Source of the DNA: Odontocerum albicorne
Lineage: Eukaryota; Arthropoda; Insecta; Trichoptera; Odontoceridae
Reading direction: 5' to 3'
Length of the DNA stretch: 64,000 nucleotides
Assembly: GCA_949825065.1 (NCBI GenBank)
Contig: OX463859.1
Location: 26,181,847-26,245,846 of the forward strand
In this document: positions 13,903 to 50,886 of the stretch, piece after piece
Layout: each line of letters opens with the position of its first letter
Position numbering within the stretch: the first letter of the stretch is position 1
The notes under the pieces: generated by a model
Database searches by the model: none
Seen by the model: the letters and a program-made list of their open reading frames with translations, nothing else
What the model was told of the DNA's origin: nothing
Position numbers and translations under genes: made by a program

Positions 13903-14860
13903 ATATGCGTATCCAGAAAGTAAGTGTACTGAGGCTCTCACGACCGGATGGATTTTATTTTCGACATGTTGGCTACACTTCCGTGTAGCCTGACCCTTCC
14001 CCTCCGCAACGAGACCAGTTCGAGGTCAGTACGTTGAGAAGTGTCGACGCGACAACACGTTTCGTGAAAAATGTCAATCCAATCTTCCGCCAAGTGCGAA
14101 ATACGCGGCGTCATCCGTTATCTCGTTTGGAAGGGAAAACCTCCGGTTGAGGTTTATAATGAGGTGAAAACTGCATATGGTGATAAATCTATGAATCTTA
14201 CGAGTGTGTACAAGTAGTGTCGCGAGTTTAAAAACGGTCACGTCACACCTCTTCACCCTCCGCCAAAAAGTTCAAAACCACAATTTCAGCCAAGAAAAAC
14301 ATGGCATCCGTGTTTGGGATTGTCAAGGCATAATTTTTATTGAATATATGTCTCAAGGGGAGACCATCAACTCTGCAAAATACTGTGAGACCCTAGAAAA
14401 ATTGCGGAGGGCGATTCAGAACAAGAGGAGAGGCATGCTGACAAAGGGAGTCTGCCTGCTGCACGACAATGCCAGACCACACACGGCCAACGCCACGAAG
14501 GAACTGCTCGCCTCGTTTAAATGGGATGTCCTGAACCATCCCGCGCATTCCCCTGACCTAGTACCTTCAGATTACTATCTCTTTACCTCCCTGAAGCTGC
14601 ACATGGATGGAAAAAGGTTTTTAACCGACGAGGAGGTAAATGAGGAGGTGGCGAAGTAGACGGAGGGGTTGGCGGGAAACTACTTCGAGGAAGGCATCAA
14701 AAAGTTGATACCCCGCTTCACCACCTGCATTGAGAGGAATGGCGACTATGTCGAAAAATAGCTTACATATGTACTACGGTAACCACGTAATTTTTTTGTT
14801 TAAATAAAAAAAATTGTAACCTACAAAAATTCAGTACACTTACTTTCTGGATAGGCCTCG
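13903..14860 (+). mobile_element. Decayed mariner element inserted in the tandem array
   Basis: The ends share TATCCAGAAAGTAAGTGTAC in inverted orientation (13910-13930 and 14833-14853), with a 7-bp outer part that has diverged. The array unit resumes after the element, with TA at both junctions (13901-13902 and 14861-14862), which is the mariner target duplication. At about 960 bp it is shorter than a full mariner (about 1.3 kb). Confidence 0.85.
14071..14761 (+). pseudogene. mariner transposase pseudogene (DD34D)
   Basis: Transposase of a cut-and-paste mariner; the normal protein binds the inverted repeats and cuts with a DDD triad. An ATG at 14071 opens the N-terminal DNA-binding part (CEIRGVIRYLVWKGKPP), which meets a stop at about 14216. 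An internal deletion then joins it to the catalytic region. There HDNARPH holds the second aspartate and SPDLVPSDYYLF the third, with 34 residues between them (DD34D). The block with the first aspartate is missing or unrecognisable. A one-base frameshift lies near 14310 and a stop at 14657. The tail ends in NGDYVEK. Not functional. Confidence 0.85.
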
Positions 14861-21242: not shown

Positions 21243-21870
21243 CAGTGGTGGCCGGTGGACAAAATAATTGGGGATTCACCAGAGTAGGTATCCAAATACT
21301 AAATAATATATAGAAAAAAAAATTACGTACTTATTTATAAAGAAGTTCTATTCTCCGCTCTTTTCGTTTAGCGAAGACCTCAATGAACCTTTTGTTGAAA
21401 TCAAGTATAGACTGAATTAGCTCTTTTTCGATGCTTGATATTGATAAAGCGTTCAGTATGTCCTGGCTCATCGTATTTCTCAAAAATGATTTTATCCTTT
21501 TTAACGTAGAGAAACACCTTTCACTCTCAACAGAAGTCATTGGAATAGTGCATACGAGTTTAAATAACTTTACAGTCTGAGAAAAATCTTCTAGTAAACC
21601 AGTATTATAAAAAAATTGTAAAATAAACAAAGCGCCATCAGCATTGGCAAAATCATCGCGAGTATAAATTGCACTGAGTTCACCTTTTAATTGAACTTTA
21701 TTTAAAAAATCGTATGTTTTTACCGTCAAAATAAAATCATGTTCGGGAAATTTTGATCTATACTCAGTAAATTTTTCGCAATAGAGTAATTTTGCTGCAG
21801 TTAGGTGATTACAACATAAATTGAAAACAAAGATGGAATCAGATAGGTTCAACTTTACAAATCCTCAAAA
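21243..21870 (-). pseudogene. hAT transposase C-terminal fragment with terminal repeat
   Basis: An open minus-strand frame of about 173 codons (21852-21331) contains FPEHDFILTVKTYDFLNK, then CTIPMTSVESERCFSTLKRI, FLRNTM and ALSISSIEKEL. This is the hAT dimerisation domain as found in ZMYM1-like insect transposases. The amino-terminal and catalytic regions are absent. The downstream end shows CAGTGGTGGCCGGTGG at 21243, a typical hAT terminus. No matching left end or 8-bp duplication was found. The remaining frame is intact but starts without a plausible ATG. Confidence 0.8.
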
Positions 21871-33282: not shown

Positions 33283-33990
33283 TCTGGTTGGTTGGAAGAG
33301 ATTGCTGCCTGACAATAATCTCACCTAATTCCTTCCTTCCGTGGTTGCAGTCCTAAGACTGGTTTGCAGCAATTTGAACTCTTCTCCTCCATTCCCCCCT
33401 GTCCTGTGCGGCTCTTTTTAAGTCTGTGTATGTTGAGCAGCGCACGTCCACCAACAGGTCCTCCAGGTACTCTCGGCGTGGGCGTCCCCTAGAGTTTGTC
33501 CCCTCGGTCATGCCCTCCATTATGGCATGCAAGAGGCCCTCTTGTCGTATTATATGACCGATCCATCTTGCACGCCTTTCGGACAGGATCCTGAGCAGGT
33601 GCCTTCCTCCTTCGATTCGTTGGAGAACCTCTTCATTTGTGATGCGGTCTCTCCAGGAAATTCCTAATAGTCTTCTATAGGACCACATCTCAAAAGCCTC
33701 TAGTCTTCGTCTATCTCTTTCGGATAGGCACCATGTCTCGCAGCCGTACATCAAGATACTCCATACATAGGTCTTGATGAGGAGTATTCTCAGTTTAAGG
33801 TCTATATTATTTGATTCTATTATTTTCGACCTTTTATTAAATGCAAGTCTAGCCTGATGTATACGGCTGTCGACCTCGCTCTTGGACCGACCGTCCCATG
33901 TTATTTTGCTCCCGAGGTAGACAAACTCCTTGGTGTTCTTTAGTGGTTTACCCGACATCACTAATTGTATTTGCAATAACAGGGTTAAAT
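33283..33990 (+). mobile_element. SINE tail split by a young LINE beta copy
   Basis: GGTTGGTTGGAAGAGATTGC, CAATAATCTCACCTAATT (to 33330) continues after the LINE with CTAATTGTATTTGCAATAAC and GGGTTAAATAAATAAA. An uninterrupted relative lies at 59010-59095, which shows the pre-insertion order. Confidence 0.8.
33331..33960 (-). pseudogene. LINE beta, young 5'-truncated copy 1
   Basis: A 630-bp insertion flanked by a 6-bp target duplication CTAATT (33325-33330 and 33961-33966). The minus-strand frame is open throughout: SGKPLKNTKEFVYLGSKITW, WSILMYGCETWCLSERDRRR, EAFEMWSYRRLLGISWRDR, RARWIGHIIRQEG, NSRGRPRREYLEDLL, ending AANQS. After the stop, CTGCAACCACGGA leads into a GGAA repeat tail. About eight differences by eye from the 45.5-kb copy over the shared 625 bp. 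The RT catalytic domain is missing, so this copy cannot move by itself. Confidence 0.9.
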
Positions 33991-39284: not shown

Positions 39285-39535
39285 CGTTTCTTCGTTAGGT
39301 AGGCCGAGCGGTTAGAGTGCCCTACTTTCTTTTCTCGATACATATTTCACCTCTGGTGGAAAATAAGGAAAATAGGTAGAAATTGTCAACCATACCTGCC
39401 CTGGGGTTGCGGGTTAGAACCCCGTTGAAACCCAGATTTAAAAAAAAAAGGTTGGAAGAGATTGCCACACGGCAATAATTCAGTTTAGTTTTACTCTTAA
39501 CAGTAAAAGTGTAATACAATAATAAAAAAATAGAA
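39285..39535 (+). mobile_element. Composite SINE: tRNA-like head, repeat D piece and SINE-A tail
   Basis: GGTAGGCCGAGCGGTTAGAG resembles a tRNA-Leu/Ser-type A box. Then CTCGATACATATTTC (repeat D), a B-box-like GGGTTAGAACCCC, GAAACCCAGATTTAAAA and the SINE-A tail GGTTGGAAGAGATTGCC...AGTAAAAGTGTAATAC. The mosaic could be one SINE inserted in another or a chimeric subfamily. Confidence 0.5.
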
Positions 39536-39557
39536 GTTTTTAAATCTTTGATTATCT

Positions 39558-40012
39558 TATAGCGGATTGCTTATGTTAAATTGTTGTGATGATTTTGATT
39601 GATATTTGTTTACTTATAGACTCAGGAATGCGGATATATAAAAACGAAAGTGACAACAGGCGATAAATAATAAGTCTTGACAGTTGAATGGACGACAATA
39701 AAAGTATGTTTATTTCGCAGAGTGCGGACAATTTATACCAGTGAATGAATACATGGGCGATATATATCTGCCTTGCTCTATCACATGAACTGGCGGTAGG
39801 TTAATTATTTATATTTGGAGATGGCTAGCCAATTTGCACGCTGTAAATAGTAAATATTGTCGTTGTTCGTAGTGTGTAACAATCATTGAATTCTTCATCG
39901 GTCATTGCCCCTGCATGTTTACTATTAACAATAATTAATTTAATTTATTTGTGTTTTAACAATTCACTCGTTATTTTGACAATTCATTTAGGTAGGTATA
40001 CAGGTAGGTACA
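39558..40012 (-). repeat. 3' LTR
   Basis: 455 bp. On the minus strand it begins TGTACCTACCTGTATACC and follows the polypurine tract. AATAAACATAC on that strand may be a poly(A) signal. One visible difference from the 5' LTR (GTTAAATTG here, GTTTAATTG there). Confidence 0.93.
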
Positions 40013-40032
40013 TAGCTCCCTTCCTAGTGAAC
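40013..40032 (-). promoter_or_regulatory. Polypurine tract
   Basis: Minus strand CTAGGAAGGGAGCTA directly precedes the TGTACC start of the 3' LTR. In LTR elements this primes plus-strand DNA synthesis. Confidence 0.75.
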
Positions 40033-40280
40033 GCAGAGGGCGCGTGCCTTGCGTGAACGTTAGGTTCCGGTGCATCTGACGTCGGGCTGGTTATCCGTTC
40101 CCCGTGTCGAAGTAGGTACGTGGACAACATCAGCGCGTGGCGTTTTTTCCCAGATCTGTCGGTCAGATGGGTGATGCGGAAACGGGGGTAGGCTTGGTCG
40201 TCTCTCACTAAATTTGGATTGTCTGCGGTGCTTGGTTGGTTGTTGCGCTGATCGTCGATGATTGGTTGTGTGGATCAAGT
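40020..40280 (-). other. LTR-element interior, proline/arginine-rich open frame of unknown origin
   Basis: A minus frame of about 72 codons (40278-40060) reads RRSAQQPTKHRRQSKFSERR and RPSLPPFPHHPSDRQIWEK. It could be a gag remnant or non-coding; I do not recognise it. A second overlapping frame (40208-39984) is equally uncertain. High GC for the window. Confidence 0.35.
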
Positions 40281-40600
40281 TGCAGATGGCGTCCGCGGTG
40301 GAAGGTGGATCTGCAGTTGCTTGATGATGGTGGTGATGATGAAGATCAAGTTGCAGATGGCTTCCGATGTGGAAGGTTGATCTGCGGTGGCTTGATGGTG
40401 ATAGTGATGATGTAGATCAAGTTGCAGATGGCTTCCGCGGTGGAAGGTTGATCTGCGGTGGCTTGATGATGGTGTCTGCGGTGCTCGTTGCTGCAGCGTG
40501 GTTGTAGCGTGGTTGTATCGTGGTTCTAGCGATGTTGTAGCGTGGTTGTAGCGATGTTCGTGGTTGTATCGATGTTGTAGCGATGCTTGTCTGCTACTGC
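40276..40600 (-). repeat. Short tandem repeats inside the LTR element
   Basis: Three units of about 70 bp at 40276, 40346 and 40415 with ATCAAGTTGCAGATGGC and GTGGAAGGTTGATCTGCGG, joined by GATGATGGTG-type runs. Then a 14-15-bp repeat GTAGCGTGGTTGTA / GTAGCGATGTTGTA (40495-40590). They lie downstream of the H2B frame in element sense. Confidence 0.8.
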
Positions 40601-40700
40601 ATCTTGTCGGTCAGTAGTTCGTCGAGGGAGGCAATCCTGTAAATCGTGTGGCTGATCGCCAGGACTGACCTCGCGTGAGCTGACGTCGGGCTCGTCCAAA

Positions 40701-40949
40701 TCAGATGTAGTGTTGTATCTGAGTGACGGCTCTGGTGTCTTTTCTGACGGCGTGCTTGACTAATTCGCCGGGGAGTAGAATCTTGACGGTTGTCTGGATC
40801 TCTCTGCTGGTGATGATGCTCATCTTGTTGTAGTGGGCGAGGCGGTTTGCGTTGGCGGCGGTGCGCTCGAAAATCTCGTTGACGAAATTGTTCATGATGC
40901 TCATCGCATTGCTGCTGATGCCGGTGTCGAGTTGCAATTGTTTTGACAT
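40701..40949 (-). CDS. Captured histone H2B C-terminal fragment, 82 codons
   Basis: ATG at 40949, stop at 40701, uninterrupted. It starts about 45 bp after the primer-binding site, where gag would begin, and an in-frame TGA lies upstream, so the start is well fixed. Residues 8-13 are DTGISS. Residues 14-42 ([20 protein letters not shown]...RLAHYNK) are H2B helix alpha2, 44-68 ([20 protein letters not shown]...HAV) cover loop 2 and alpha3, and the rest is alphaC. By eye about three quarters of 70 positions match canonical H2B. The basic N-terminal tail and alpha1 are missing. The ubiquitinated lysine of AVTK is Q77 and the acidic-patch glutamate in the alphaC segment is K70. It could not form a normal nucleosomal H2B. 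It may act in the element, be a dominant interfering fragment, or be a passenger. Confidence 0.92.
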
Positions 40950-40993
40950 TGCTGTCGAGTCGGCGATATTCGATATAGTCGAGGTATGTATTC

Positions 40994-41016
40994 AGTTATC
41001 ACGTCGGGGTCACCAA
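40994..41016 (-). promoter_or_regulatory. Primer-binding site
   Basis: Minus strand TTGGTGACCCCGACGTGAT follows the CCGCTATA end of the 5' LTR by at most 1-2 bases. The TGG start and position fit the complement of a tRNA 3' end; I did not assign the tRNA. Confidence 0.8.
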
Positions 41017-41471
41017 TATAGCGGATTGCTTATGTTTAATTGTTGTGATGATTTTGATTGATATTTGTTTACTTATAGACTCAGGAATGCGGATATATAA
41101 AAACGAAAGTGACAACAGGCGATAAATAATAAGTCTTGACAGTTGAATGGACGACAATAAAAGTATGTTTATTTCGCAGAGTGCGGACAATTTATACCAG
41201 TGAATGAATACATGGGCGATATATATCTGCCTTGCTCTATCACATGAACTGGCGGTAGGTTAATTATTTATATTTGGAGATGGCTAGCCAATTTGCACGC
41301 TGTAAATAGTAAATATTGTCGTTGTTCGTAGTGTGTAACAATCATTGAATTCTTCATCGGTCATTGCCCCTGCATGTTTACTATTAACAATAATTAATTT
41401 AATTTATTTGTGTTTTAACAATTCACTCGTTATTTTGACAATTCATTTAGGTAGGTATACAGGTAGGTACA
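41017..41471 (-). repeat. 5' LTR
   Basis: 455 bp, almost identical to the 3' LTR. The promoter of the element should lie here, but no TATA position is proposed. Confidence 0.93.
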
Positions 41472-41475
41472 ATCT

Positions 41476-41692
41476 CTTTGGTCTAGTTGGTAAACGCCTC
41501 TGTCCCGATCCAAGTATTGCGGTTCGATTCCCTTTTTTCCTTACATTTTTAGGAAACAGAATAAAAATCTTGTTTTCACTTGAAGTCTTTTTAATATCTT
41601 TATGGTTAGCTAGAATATATTGTCACATGTCAATCAACTAGCAAGGTTATACTGAATACAACGAAAATTTAATATAATCGGTACGTAACAGC
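41476..41692 (+). mobile_element. SINE-A, divergent copy
   Basis: The tRNA-like head CTTTGGTCTAGTTGGTAAAC and B box GCGGTTCGATTCCC are followed by TTGTTTTCACTTGAAGTC, GGTTAGCTAGAATATATTGTC and AGGTTATACTGAATACAACG. The H2B LTR element inserted at its 5' edge, duplicating ATCT. Confidence 0.7.
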
Positions 41693-41699
41693 CCAGCTT

Positions 41700-42225
41700 T
41701 GTGTCCAACACTTTGTTTGTACACACATTTGAAAGGAAACTGATACGTAACATTAGGGTGATTTGATATGTAATCTTTTGGCAAATTCCTTCGAATTAGG
41801 AATTGATTTTTTATGCAAATATTATGTGGATATATTGTAAAAGTAATTGAAATTTAATTAGAGTTCGAACAAATGAGTCAATCTTTTAATAAAATGATAC
41901 TCTAACAGCGATACACGATTTCTTTTATTCAATTATGAGTGTGAAAAAGCTGACACAGCAAGTTGAAGCCAAATAACCTTAATAACATTAAACTTATATA
42001 ATTTTGTAGAGTTTAGATTTATTCGTCGATGTATTCCAAAAAGGAAAATAGGACATCTTATTGATTCACTTGTTGTGTCGCCTGTGGATTGTCGTAGTTC
42101 TTTTTTTCTGGTTTCGGTGTTTCACAAATTTCTGGACTCCGGTCTGTTTTCGGTACGGCTGCTGGGCTGATATATGGTGGTCATAGATTATGTCACATTG
42201 GTTTGCTTTTGAAGGGTCTCCACTA
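41700..42225. other. Unassigned stretch
   Basis: No recognised content. Confidence 0.45.
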
Positions 42226-42989: not shown

Positions 42990-43540
42990 TTGTTTTTTTA
43001 TTATTATTATAAACAACATTAGCGTTGGATGTCTTTTTATTATTATAAACAGCATTAGACTGGGATGTCTTTTTATTATTATTATAAACAGCATTAGAGT
43101 TGGATGTCTTTTTATTATTATTATAAACAGCATTAGAGTTGGTTGTCTTTTTTTTAATTATTATAAACAGCATTAGAGTTGGATGTCTTTTAATTATTAT
43201 TATAAACAGCATTAGAGTTGGATGTCTTTTTATTATTATTATTATAAACAGCATTAGAAATGGATGTCTTTTTATTATTATTATAAACAGCATTAGAGTT
43301 AGATGTCTTTTTATTATTATTATAAACAGCATTAGAGTTGGTTGTCTTTTTTTTAATATTATAAACAGCATTAGAGTTGGTTGTCTTTTTTTTAATTATT
43401 ATAAACAGCATTAGAGTTGGATGTCTTTTTATTATTATTATAAACAGCATTAGAGTTGGATGTCTTTTTATTATTATTATAAACAGCATTAGAGTTGGAT
43501 GTCTTTTTATTATTATTATAAACAGCATTAGAGTTGGATG
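42990..43540 (+). repeat. Minisatellite, 39 bp x 14
   Basis: Fourteen units of AGTTGGATGTCTTTTTATTA + TTATTATAAACAGCATTAG. Lengths are mostly 39 bp, with 33-, 40- and 42-bp variants arising in the TTA run and T run. Because most units are multiples of three, all strands stay open in places and yield long repetitive frames (MLFIIIIKRHPT, NSIRVGCLFIIIII), which I do not regard as genes. Confidence 0.95.
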
Positions 43541-45260: not shown

Positions 45261-45509
45261 AGTATTATCAACCGACATACAAAGTTTAATTACAATTTTT
45301 GAATATTTACTTTCATATAGAAATTTTAGTAAACCTTTTAAAAAAAATTTAATTTATCTAATTAAAGTCGGATACTGGGAAATGTCTTGATTTTGATCGG
45401 GTCTGAAAGTTTAAAAATCTGTCAAAAAGGTAAAGAAAACTCAAATCGTACAGTATTTGCAAATACGAATGAAATAAAAGGTTCTAATTACGTAAGTTAT
45501 AAGTACAGT

Positions 45510-46535
45510 TGATATCAAATACAGAGATAGACGTATAATCCAGGCGCTATACAAGAATGAGGCCGCTATACTCAGATGTGACGAGGCCACAAAGGAAGCC
45601 AATATAAGACAAGGGGTAAGGCAGGGATGCTCTCTGTCACCTGTTCTTTTTAACGCCTATATACAGAGCGCGATTGACGACTTGAGAGAGAGAATGAGTC
45701 ACAGAGAAGGTGTAAAGATACACGGGCAAAAGGTGGATATGATAAGGTTCGCTGACGATATTGCTATGGTTGCTGAAAGTGAAGAGGAACTACAAGAGGC
45801 CTTAACAACTATGGAAAGCATTCTTCAAAATAACTACAGTATGAAGATAAATAAAGACAAAACAAAGCTGCTGACTGTAGGCCGAGCGCAACACCAGATG
45901 AGAATAGTGATGTCGGGTAAACCACTAAAGAACACCAAGGAGTTTGTCTACCTCGGGAGCAAAATAACATGGTACGGTCGGTCCAAGAGCGAGGTCGACA
46001 GCCGTATACATCAGGCTAGACTTGCATTTAATAAAAGGTCGAAAATAATAGAATCAAATAATATAGACCTAAAACTGAGAATACTCCTCATCAAGACCTA
46101 TGTATGGAGTATCTTGATGTACGGCTGCGAGACATGGTGCCTATCCGAAAGAGATAGACGAAGACTAGAGGCTTTTGAGATGTGGTCCTATAGAAGACTT
46201 TTAGGAATTTCCTGGAGAGACCGCATCACGAATGAAGAGGTTCTCCAACGAATCGAAGGAGGAAGGCACCTGCTCAGGATCCTGTCCGAAAGGCGTGCAA
46301 GATGGATCGGTCATATAATAAGACAAGAGGGCCTCTTGCATGCCATAATGGAGGGTATGACCGAGGGGACAAACTCTAGGGGACGCCCACGCCGAGAGTA
46401 CCTGGAGGACCTGTTGGTGGACGTGCGCTGCTCAACATATACAGATTTAAAAAGAGCCGCACAGGACAGGGGGGAATGGAGGAGAAGAGTTGAAATTGCT
46501 GCAAACCAGTCTTAGGACTGCAACCACGGAGAGAG
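45510..46535 (+). pseudogene. LINE beta, young 5'-truncated copy 2, including the RT catalytic box
   Basis: A 1,026-bp insertion with a 9-bp target duplication AAGTACAGT (45501-45509 and 46536-46544). One open frame runs from the truncation to TAG at 46513-46515: IRQGVRQGCSLSPVLFNAYI (RT motif), IRFADDIAMV (catalytic box with both aspartates), KINKDKTKLLTVG, EFVYLGSKITWYG, then the carboxy end shared with the 33-kb copy. The endonuclease and N-terminal RT are missing, so this copy is dead on arrival, but the frame has no lesion. The 3' end CTGCAACCACGGA + GAGAGA is short. Minus-strand frames here are shadows. Confidence 0.92.
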
Positions 46536-50082: not shown

Positions 50083-50886
50083 GGTTAGTCAAAACGTTTT
50101 AAAAGCGACATCTATGGAGCAGTAGAAAAACCAAAATTTCTACGCCATTTTAATATTTCATCTTTCATAAGAACGTACTCGAAATTTCATTTCGATCTGT
50201 TAATTCATTCTTTGTTTACAAGCCATTTGAAGTTGACGTGTCAGTGTATTTTTTAACAATGGAAAAATCCGAATATCGTGCAGTGATTAAATTCTTTGTT
50301 TTGGAAGGTTTATCGGCTACTGAGATCCATGCAAAGATGGTGAAAGTATTAGAGGAGTCTTGTCCTTCATTTTCAACCGTTCACCGATGGGTTTTGGAGT
50401 TTATGCGTGGCCGTACAAGCGTTGAAGACGATCCACGCTCAGGACGTCCAAAAAGTGCATCAACACCAGAAATCATAGCGAAAATACAGGATATGGTTTT
50501 GGAAGATCATCGATCGACTGTGGATGTGATAGCGGACACCATCGGCATCTCACATGGAACAACATGGCATATTTTGGCTGAAGTTTTGGGTTTCAAAAAA
50601 CTGTGTGCACAATGGGTGCCGCATTTGATAACAATGCAACAAAAACACGTTCGAATGCGACTTTCTGAGCAACATTTGGAGCAATTTCGAAAGAATAAAA
50701 AGGATTTTCTGCGTCGATTCATCACTATGGATGAGACTTGGGTCTACCACTGAGAATAAGAAGGAGAATGGAAGATCGTTGGACCAAGTGTATTGATCTT
50801 ATGGGAGACTATACTGAGCAATAAAAGTGATTTCCACCCAAAAAAAATGTATTTTCATTTCCGCTTTCAAAACTTTTTGACTAACC
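50083..50886 (+). mobile_element. Internally deleted mariner element
   Basis: Inverted repeats of about 25 bp: GGTTAGTCAAAACGTTTTAA (50083) and, inverted, GGTTAGTCAAAAAGTTTTGA (to 50886). Both are flanked by TA (50081-50082 and 50887-50888). The 804-bp length against the usual 1.3 kb shows an internal loss of about 450 bp. Confidence 0.92.
50259..50822 (+). pseudogene. mariner transposase, internally deleted
   Basis: ATG at 50259. The N-terminal helix-turn-helix half is intact: KSEYRAVIKFFVLEGLSATE, TVHRWVLEFMRGRTSVEDDP, RSGRPKSASTPEI, then DFLRRFITMDETWVYH, which contains the first catalytic aspartate. It then meets a stop at 50751-50753. In another frame RMEDRWTKCIDLMGDYTEQ and a stop follow, which is the true mariner carboxy end. 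The second and third catalytic aspartates were lost in the deletion. The retained half could in principle still bind element ends. Minus frames are shadows. Confidence 0.92.

Follow-up and report, generated by a model that had tools for sequence, protein, structure and literature searches.

We identified a complete LTR retroelement on the minus strand of the window (the whole 64-kb stretch of DNA analysed), where it occupies positions 39558-41471 and measures 1914 bp in total. Its 5' LTR (41017..41471, minus strand, 455 bp) starts with TGT and ends with ATA on the element strand, and pairwise comparison with the 455-bp 3' LTR (39558..40012, minus strand) gave one mismatch, i.e. an identity of 454/455 or 0.0022 differences per site between the two LTRs of one element. 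The target-site duplication ATCT was read from the sequence on both sides (39554..39557 and 41472..41475). A one-base spacer separates the 5' LTR from a primer binding site of the tRNA-Trp type (TGGTGACCCCGACGTGAT, 40998..41015, minus strand), all 18 bases of which coincide with the beginning of a tRNA-Trp template oligo given in the available text of PMC6379413; the same sequence serves, in the available part of PMC5029493, as a primer directed at endogenous proviruses of chicken. A polypurine tract (AGGAAGGGAGCTA, 40013..40025, minus strand), likewise read from the sequence, adjoins the 3' LTR. Paired LTRs, 4-bp target-site duplication, primer binding site and polypurine tract, all reported in an earlier note on this DNA, are present and correctly placed for an LTR retrotransposon, and 39558-41471 is a genuine young retrotransposition product. 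Gene conversion between the LTRs could make the insertion look younger.

No Rfam family matched the 64-kb window at the gathering cut-off. At E <= 5, region 39300-41700 gave only sub-threshold matches to RSV_PBS, located at the primer binding site (E 1.4), and to sR2, and none to a histone stem-loop. A second copy of the element was not found within the window, and searching the window for an empty site with the joined flanks returned only partial repeats and no uninterrupted copy. By eye, the flanks (39300-39557 and 41472-41700) resemble fragments of tRNA-headed SINEs, and parts of them recur at 68-97% identity near 18.7, 22.7, 28.4, 29.3-29.8, 38.6, 47.9, and 49.4 kb.

Interior content and predicted RNA

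The interior of the element comprises 1004 bp and has a G+C content of 0.53 versus 0.33 in the LTRs and surroundings. Its sole recognised coding content is a frame of 82 codons encoding a fragment of histone H2B (40701..40949, minus strand). No gag or pol Pfam domain reached the cut-off in the remaining interior frames with 60 or more codons (five on the minus and two on the plus strand); the minus-strand frames yielded one weak match, to an Engrailed signature (E 0.0052), and the plus-strand frames three (E 0.073-0.32), all below cut-off. The part without recognised coding content includes a 71-bp tandem repeat of 2.8 copies (40273..40474, minus strand) and a degenerate 11/22-bp tandem repeat (40495..40590, minus strand). 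This tandem-repeat part is flanked by a 16-nt direct repeat (40076-40091 and 40680-40695, 94% alike), which is possibly the trace of a template switch or a deletion.

Pattern matches in the 5' LTR suggest a candidate TATA box (TATAAA, 41191..41196, minus strand) and a candidate polyadenylation signal (AATAAA, 41168..41173, minus strand), with a further TATAAA at 41272 and a further AATAAA at 41408. With the start site predicted from the TATAAA at 41196, and with the AATAAA at 41173, the leader would span 40950..41171 (minus strand) and would be free of AUGs up to the H2B frame, as its 214-224 nt contain none, compared with 2.8-3.7 expected in shuffles (P(0) 0.02-0.05). The ATG of the frame lies 48 bp from the primer binding site, not about 45 bp as first described, and would be the first AUG on the predicted RNA, in line with the original description, if transcription uses the TATAAA at 41196. 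If transcription started at the upstream TATA (41272), two AUGs, at 41245 and 41213, would fall near or within the leader; the term first AUG is therefore valid for the TATA at 41196. The RNA could be translated into a truncated H2B, and the absence of AUGs from its predicted leader may go back to a gag leader.

The H2B fragment

Frame 40949-40701 (minus strand) encodes 82 amino acids without an internal stop. As the longest frame in shuffles of the interior averages 92 codons and 53% of 2000 shuffles reach 82, this length is expected by chance from composition, and homology rather than length is the evidence. The product matched Pfam PF00125 (Histone) with an E value of 2e-8. A PDB search returned 178 distinct sequences at E <= 0.001, and the 60 shown were all histone chains; the best single-stretch matches to H2B (~1e-30) cover residues 3-77 ungapped, and 55 of 75 residues are identical to common H2Bs. 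In a protein-database search, 1532 H2B-like proteins were recovered, and none of the best 120 exceeded 75% identity. The top match, P0002 from Artemia (174 bits), owes its raised score to an H2B segment that is present twice. A search of viral contigs retrieved relatives neither of the frame nor of a full H2B.

By sequence homology, residues 3-77 correspond to H2B from the end of alpha1 via loop 1, alpha2, and alpha3 into alphaC, with helix limits that we presume from H2B in general. H2B homology extends across alpha2 and alpha3, but the histone fold is incomplete: the N-terminal tail is absent, as is almost the whole of alpha1, and homology begins at residue 3 with the last alpha1 residues. 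Residues 78-82 (IQHYI), encoded by the final five codons, do not belong to H2B, and an alternative frame over them reads RYNTTS, possibly a frameshifted relic of KYTSSK. The uninterrupted H2B frame of the earlier note is thereby confirmed, as is its absent tail; its account of alpha2, alpha3, and alphaC holds up to residue 77, and alpha1 is not missing altogether. The two replacements it had singled out also stand in the alignment, namely lysine instead of the glutamate of H2B at residue 70, which we take to be an acidic-patch position, and glutamine instead of lysine at residue 77, presumably the ubiquitination position. In all, 19 positions within residues 3-76 are replaced (L5, N33, N35, M43, K56, and I57 are examples), including six (25, 33, 35, 56, 57, and 64) that are otherwise constant in all of the best 120 of the 1532 proteins. 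Recounted by eye, the residue of the element occurs in none of these best 120 at 11 of the 19 positions and in one to three of them at the other eight.

The structure model of the 82-aa frame has a mean pLDDT of 63.8, with helices at 13-40, 48-58, and 61-66 and nothing confident past residue 70. The control was P0023, whose H2B sequence likewise begins at VLKQ and is followed by a foreign C-terminal extension; its model has a mean pLDDT of 63.0 and also lacks a long alphaC, so that a loss of alphaC cannot be read from the first model.

That an H2B fragment and an LTR element were joined only during assembly is extremely improbable. LTRs, primer binding site, polypurine tract, and a matching 4-bp target-site duplication enclose the 1004-bp interior, and with at most 75% identity to any of the best 120 H2Bs the fragment is not ordinary stray histone sequence.

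Divergence and selection

The H2B frame has a dN of ~0.124 (20 inferred changes, 175 sites), about 56-fold the difference of 0.0022 between the LTRs, and this excess places the H2B changes before the present insertion; they hardly arose at the locus after integration. Either the H2B piece had gone through earlier replication rounds inside the element lineage, or it came from a paralogue or copy that had diverged before capture. By both routes the segment was part of the RNA that made the insertion; only a later arrival would alter this, and the placement 48 bp from the primer binding site makes such an arrival unlikely. Such a later event would be an H2B retrocopy landing in an LTR element that was already integrated and deleted, with no transduction at all. 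That only one copy is known suits this scenario, but the retrocopy would have had to land 48 bp from the primer binding site and behind an AUG-free leader, neither a poly-A tail nor an inner target duplication was seen by eye, and a nonsynonymous divergence of 12% hardly accumulates since LTR formation. We regard it as very improbable.

Drift was modelled from an inferred ancestor in which unchanged codons were kept as observed and changed codons were set to the nearest synonymous codon, with 2000 runs up to 19 differences in 74 under each of five mutation models. The frame remained stop-free in 45-53% of the neutral runs. The mean BLOSUM62 score of the changed residues is 0.21, a value reached in 3.5-20% of the neutral runs (P 0.035-0.20). 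A rough formula based on GC3 decay bounds dS between 0 and 0.19 for ancestral GC3 values of 0.81 to 1.0, and together with the dN of ~0.124 this gives a rough dN/dS of about 0.6 or more, for assumed ancestors and not from a host H2B gene. The frame is compatible with relaxed constraint, and the conservative substitutions and the ungapped alignment of residues 3-77 are weak hints that lean a little towards past constraint. With one copy in view, these values do not support the claim that the element has kept the frame open; of the proposed transduction of host H2B by a young LTR element, the genuine insertion with its captured fragment stands and selection for the open frame does not.

A variant in which the H2B changes preceded capture, the source being a diverged host paralogue or pseudogene and the piece having been carried only briefly, is unlikely. 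The nearly identical LTRs would fit it, as would the 43 of 53 unchanged non-Met codons that end in G or C, a proportion suggesting that synonymous drift has been slight for an AT-rich genome. On the other side, no such paralogue is among the best 120 of the 1532 proteins (maximum identity 75%), which is a weak objection as the host seems to be absent from the database.

A functional role of the truncated H2B in the element, as a first protein that would bind H2A or nucleosomes and tether the element RNA or DNA to chromatin or disturb host silencing, is quite unlikely. The first AUG behind an AUG-free leader (at the P(0) given above), the gap-free alignment, and the somewhat conservative substitutions speak for such a role, as do two analogies from the available texts, a bracovirus H4 described as joining host nucleosomes (PMC5423620) and a pandoravirus H2B thought to do so (PMC9145170). 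However, drift alone gives a stop-free frame about half the time, the rough dN/dS is not below ~0.6, the missing alpha1 is part of the histone fold, the leader may have lacked AUGs when it still preceded gag, and a single copy is at hand.

Comparison with known elements

The tRNA-Trp primer binding site, 4-bp target-site duplication, and TGT...ATA LTR ends are shared with the CsRn1 clade of Ty3/gypsy elements (CsRn1, PwRn1, AgCR-1 to AgCR-14, and CsRn1_Cv1), for which the available texts describe the first two features and, in some AgCRs, the same LTR ends (PMC2582038, PMC3630058); CsRn1_Cv1 itself has a 6-bp duplication (PMC3630058). Unlike members of this clade, the element has no recognisable gag or pol, and hence neither the CHCC gag motif nor the GPY/F integrase module nor a reverse transcriptase for phylogeny, so that we describe it as using CsRn1-type signals and do not file it as a clade member.

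The maize element Bs1 transduced a fragment of a plasma-membrane proton-ATPase gene. Terminal-repeat retrotransposons in miniature (TRIMs) have very short LTRs and interiors, the whole element being about 1 kb or less. The present element resembles Bs1, an LTR element holding exons taken from a cellular gene (PMC4717578, available text), in having cellular gene sequence between primer binding site and polypurine tract, and differs from this plant element in its cargo, H2B, which follows soon after the primer binding site. As a non-autonomous LTR element with a gene fragment it is also similar to TRIMs, 30 of which, in seven of 289 subfamilies, carry gene fragments in plants according to the available text of PMC4717578 (e.g. 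GmaRetroS15 of soybean), but at 1914 bp, with 455-bp LTRs and a 1004-bp interior, it is larger than a TRIM, and its host, judged by the repeats and named best hits of the window, would be an animal. A paper on bivalve TRIMs that names histone genes was considered and set aside, as they appear in its available text only as a FISH control and in citations (PMC6934838).

The bracovirus H4 and the pandoravirus H2Bs are likewise cases of one host-type core histone, in these instances within a virus. Compared with cellular H2B across fold and alphaC, the pandoravirus proteins show 70-75% (Acanthamoeba) or 64-73% (human) identity (PMC9145170, available text). The pandoravirus proteins keep the histone fold and K120, whereas the element lacks nearly all of alpha1 and has glutamine in place of that lysine. 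The available main text of this review of viral histones describes no retroelement histone, with "retrovir" occurring zero times and "transpos" in two places. In open-access full texts we found no core histone (H2B) inside an LTR retroelement, though subscription papers may hold one. Carriage of gene fragments by non-autonomous LTR elements is already known in plants, and H2B as cargo is without a record in the open-access full texts.

Origin of the element

We consider it likely that the locus holds a non-autonomous LTR retroelement with CsRn1-type cis signals, in which transduced H2B took the place of gag, which is moved in trans, and in which H2B is mostly a passenger. In an ancestor, sequence of the host H2B mRNA would have become fused to the element's leader in place of gag, either through a template switch in reverse transcription or through splicing into H2B and subsequent recombination. 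The proteins of an autonomous relative would package and copy the element RNA, and the H2B piece, diverging within the replicating lineage or before capture, would for the most part have been a passenger under relaxed constraint. As an alternative to template switching, splicing from the leader of the element into H2B is suggested by a recurrent breakpoint: in five of the best 120 proteins (P0002, P0009, P0023, P0025, and P0105), unrelated sequence precedes a stretch of H2B homology that opens at (K)VLKQ, close to where homology starts in the element. The breakpoint is perhaps a cryptic splice acceptor; several of the five are gene predictions, and it may reflect no more than a likeness of these codons to a 3' splice site. 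Points against the transduction reading are that one copy is in view and that the autonomous partner and the source of interior 40026-40700 are not identified.

A stronger version, in which a family replaced gag with the truncated H2B as its only protein, used it as a tether to chromatin or a decoy for nucleosomes, and borrowed all its enzymes from a CsRn1-type partner, is decidedly improbable. If constraint acts on the frame in further copies, a retroelement would have taken a nucleosome component in place of gag; otherwise the locus remains a clear-cut example of gene transduction, and its LTRs allow the last insertion to be dated.

Other features of the window

Two 626-bp copies of a reverse-transcriptase element, 99% alike and in opposite orientation (33338-33963 and 45905-46530), represent a recent family. 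Frame 45496-46512 contains an RVT_1 domain, and its best match among 120 listed of 470 is 57% identical over 98% of the frame, with partial matches up to 64%. A fragment of a hAT transposase (21334-21864) reaches at best 67% identity in 54 matches. As neither frame has a close match, the absence of close relatives of the H2B frame from the same database does not argue for a single copy. Fragments of Mariner-type transposases are located at 14195-14659 and 50154-50753, and a minisatellite with a 39-bp unit at 42991-43540 (~14 copies, 92% matches).
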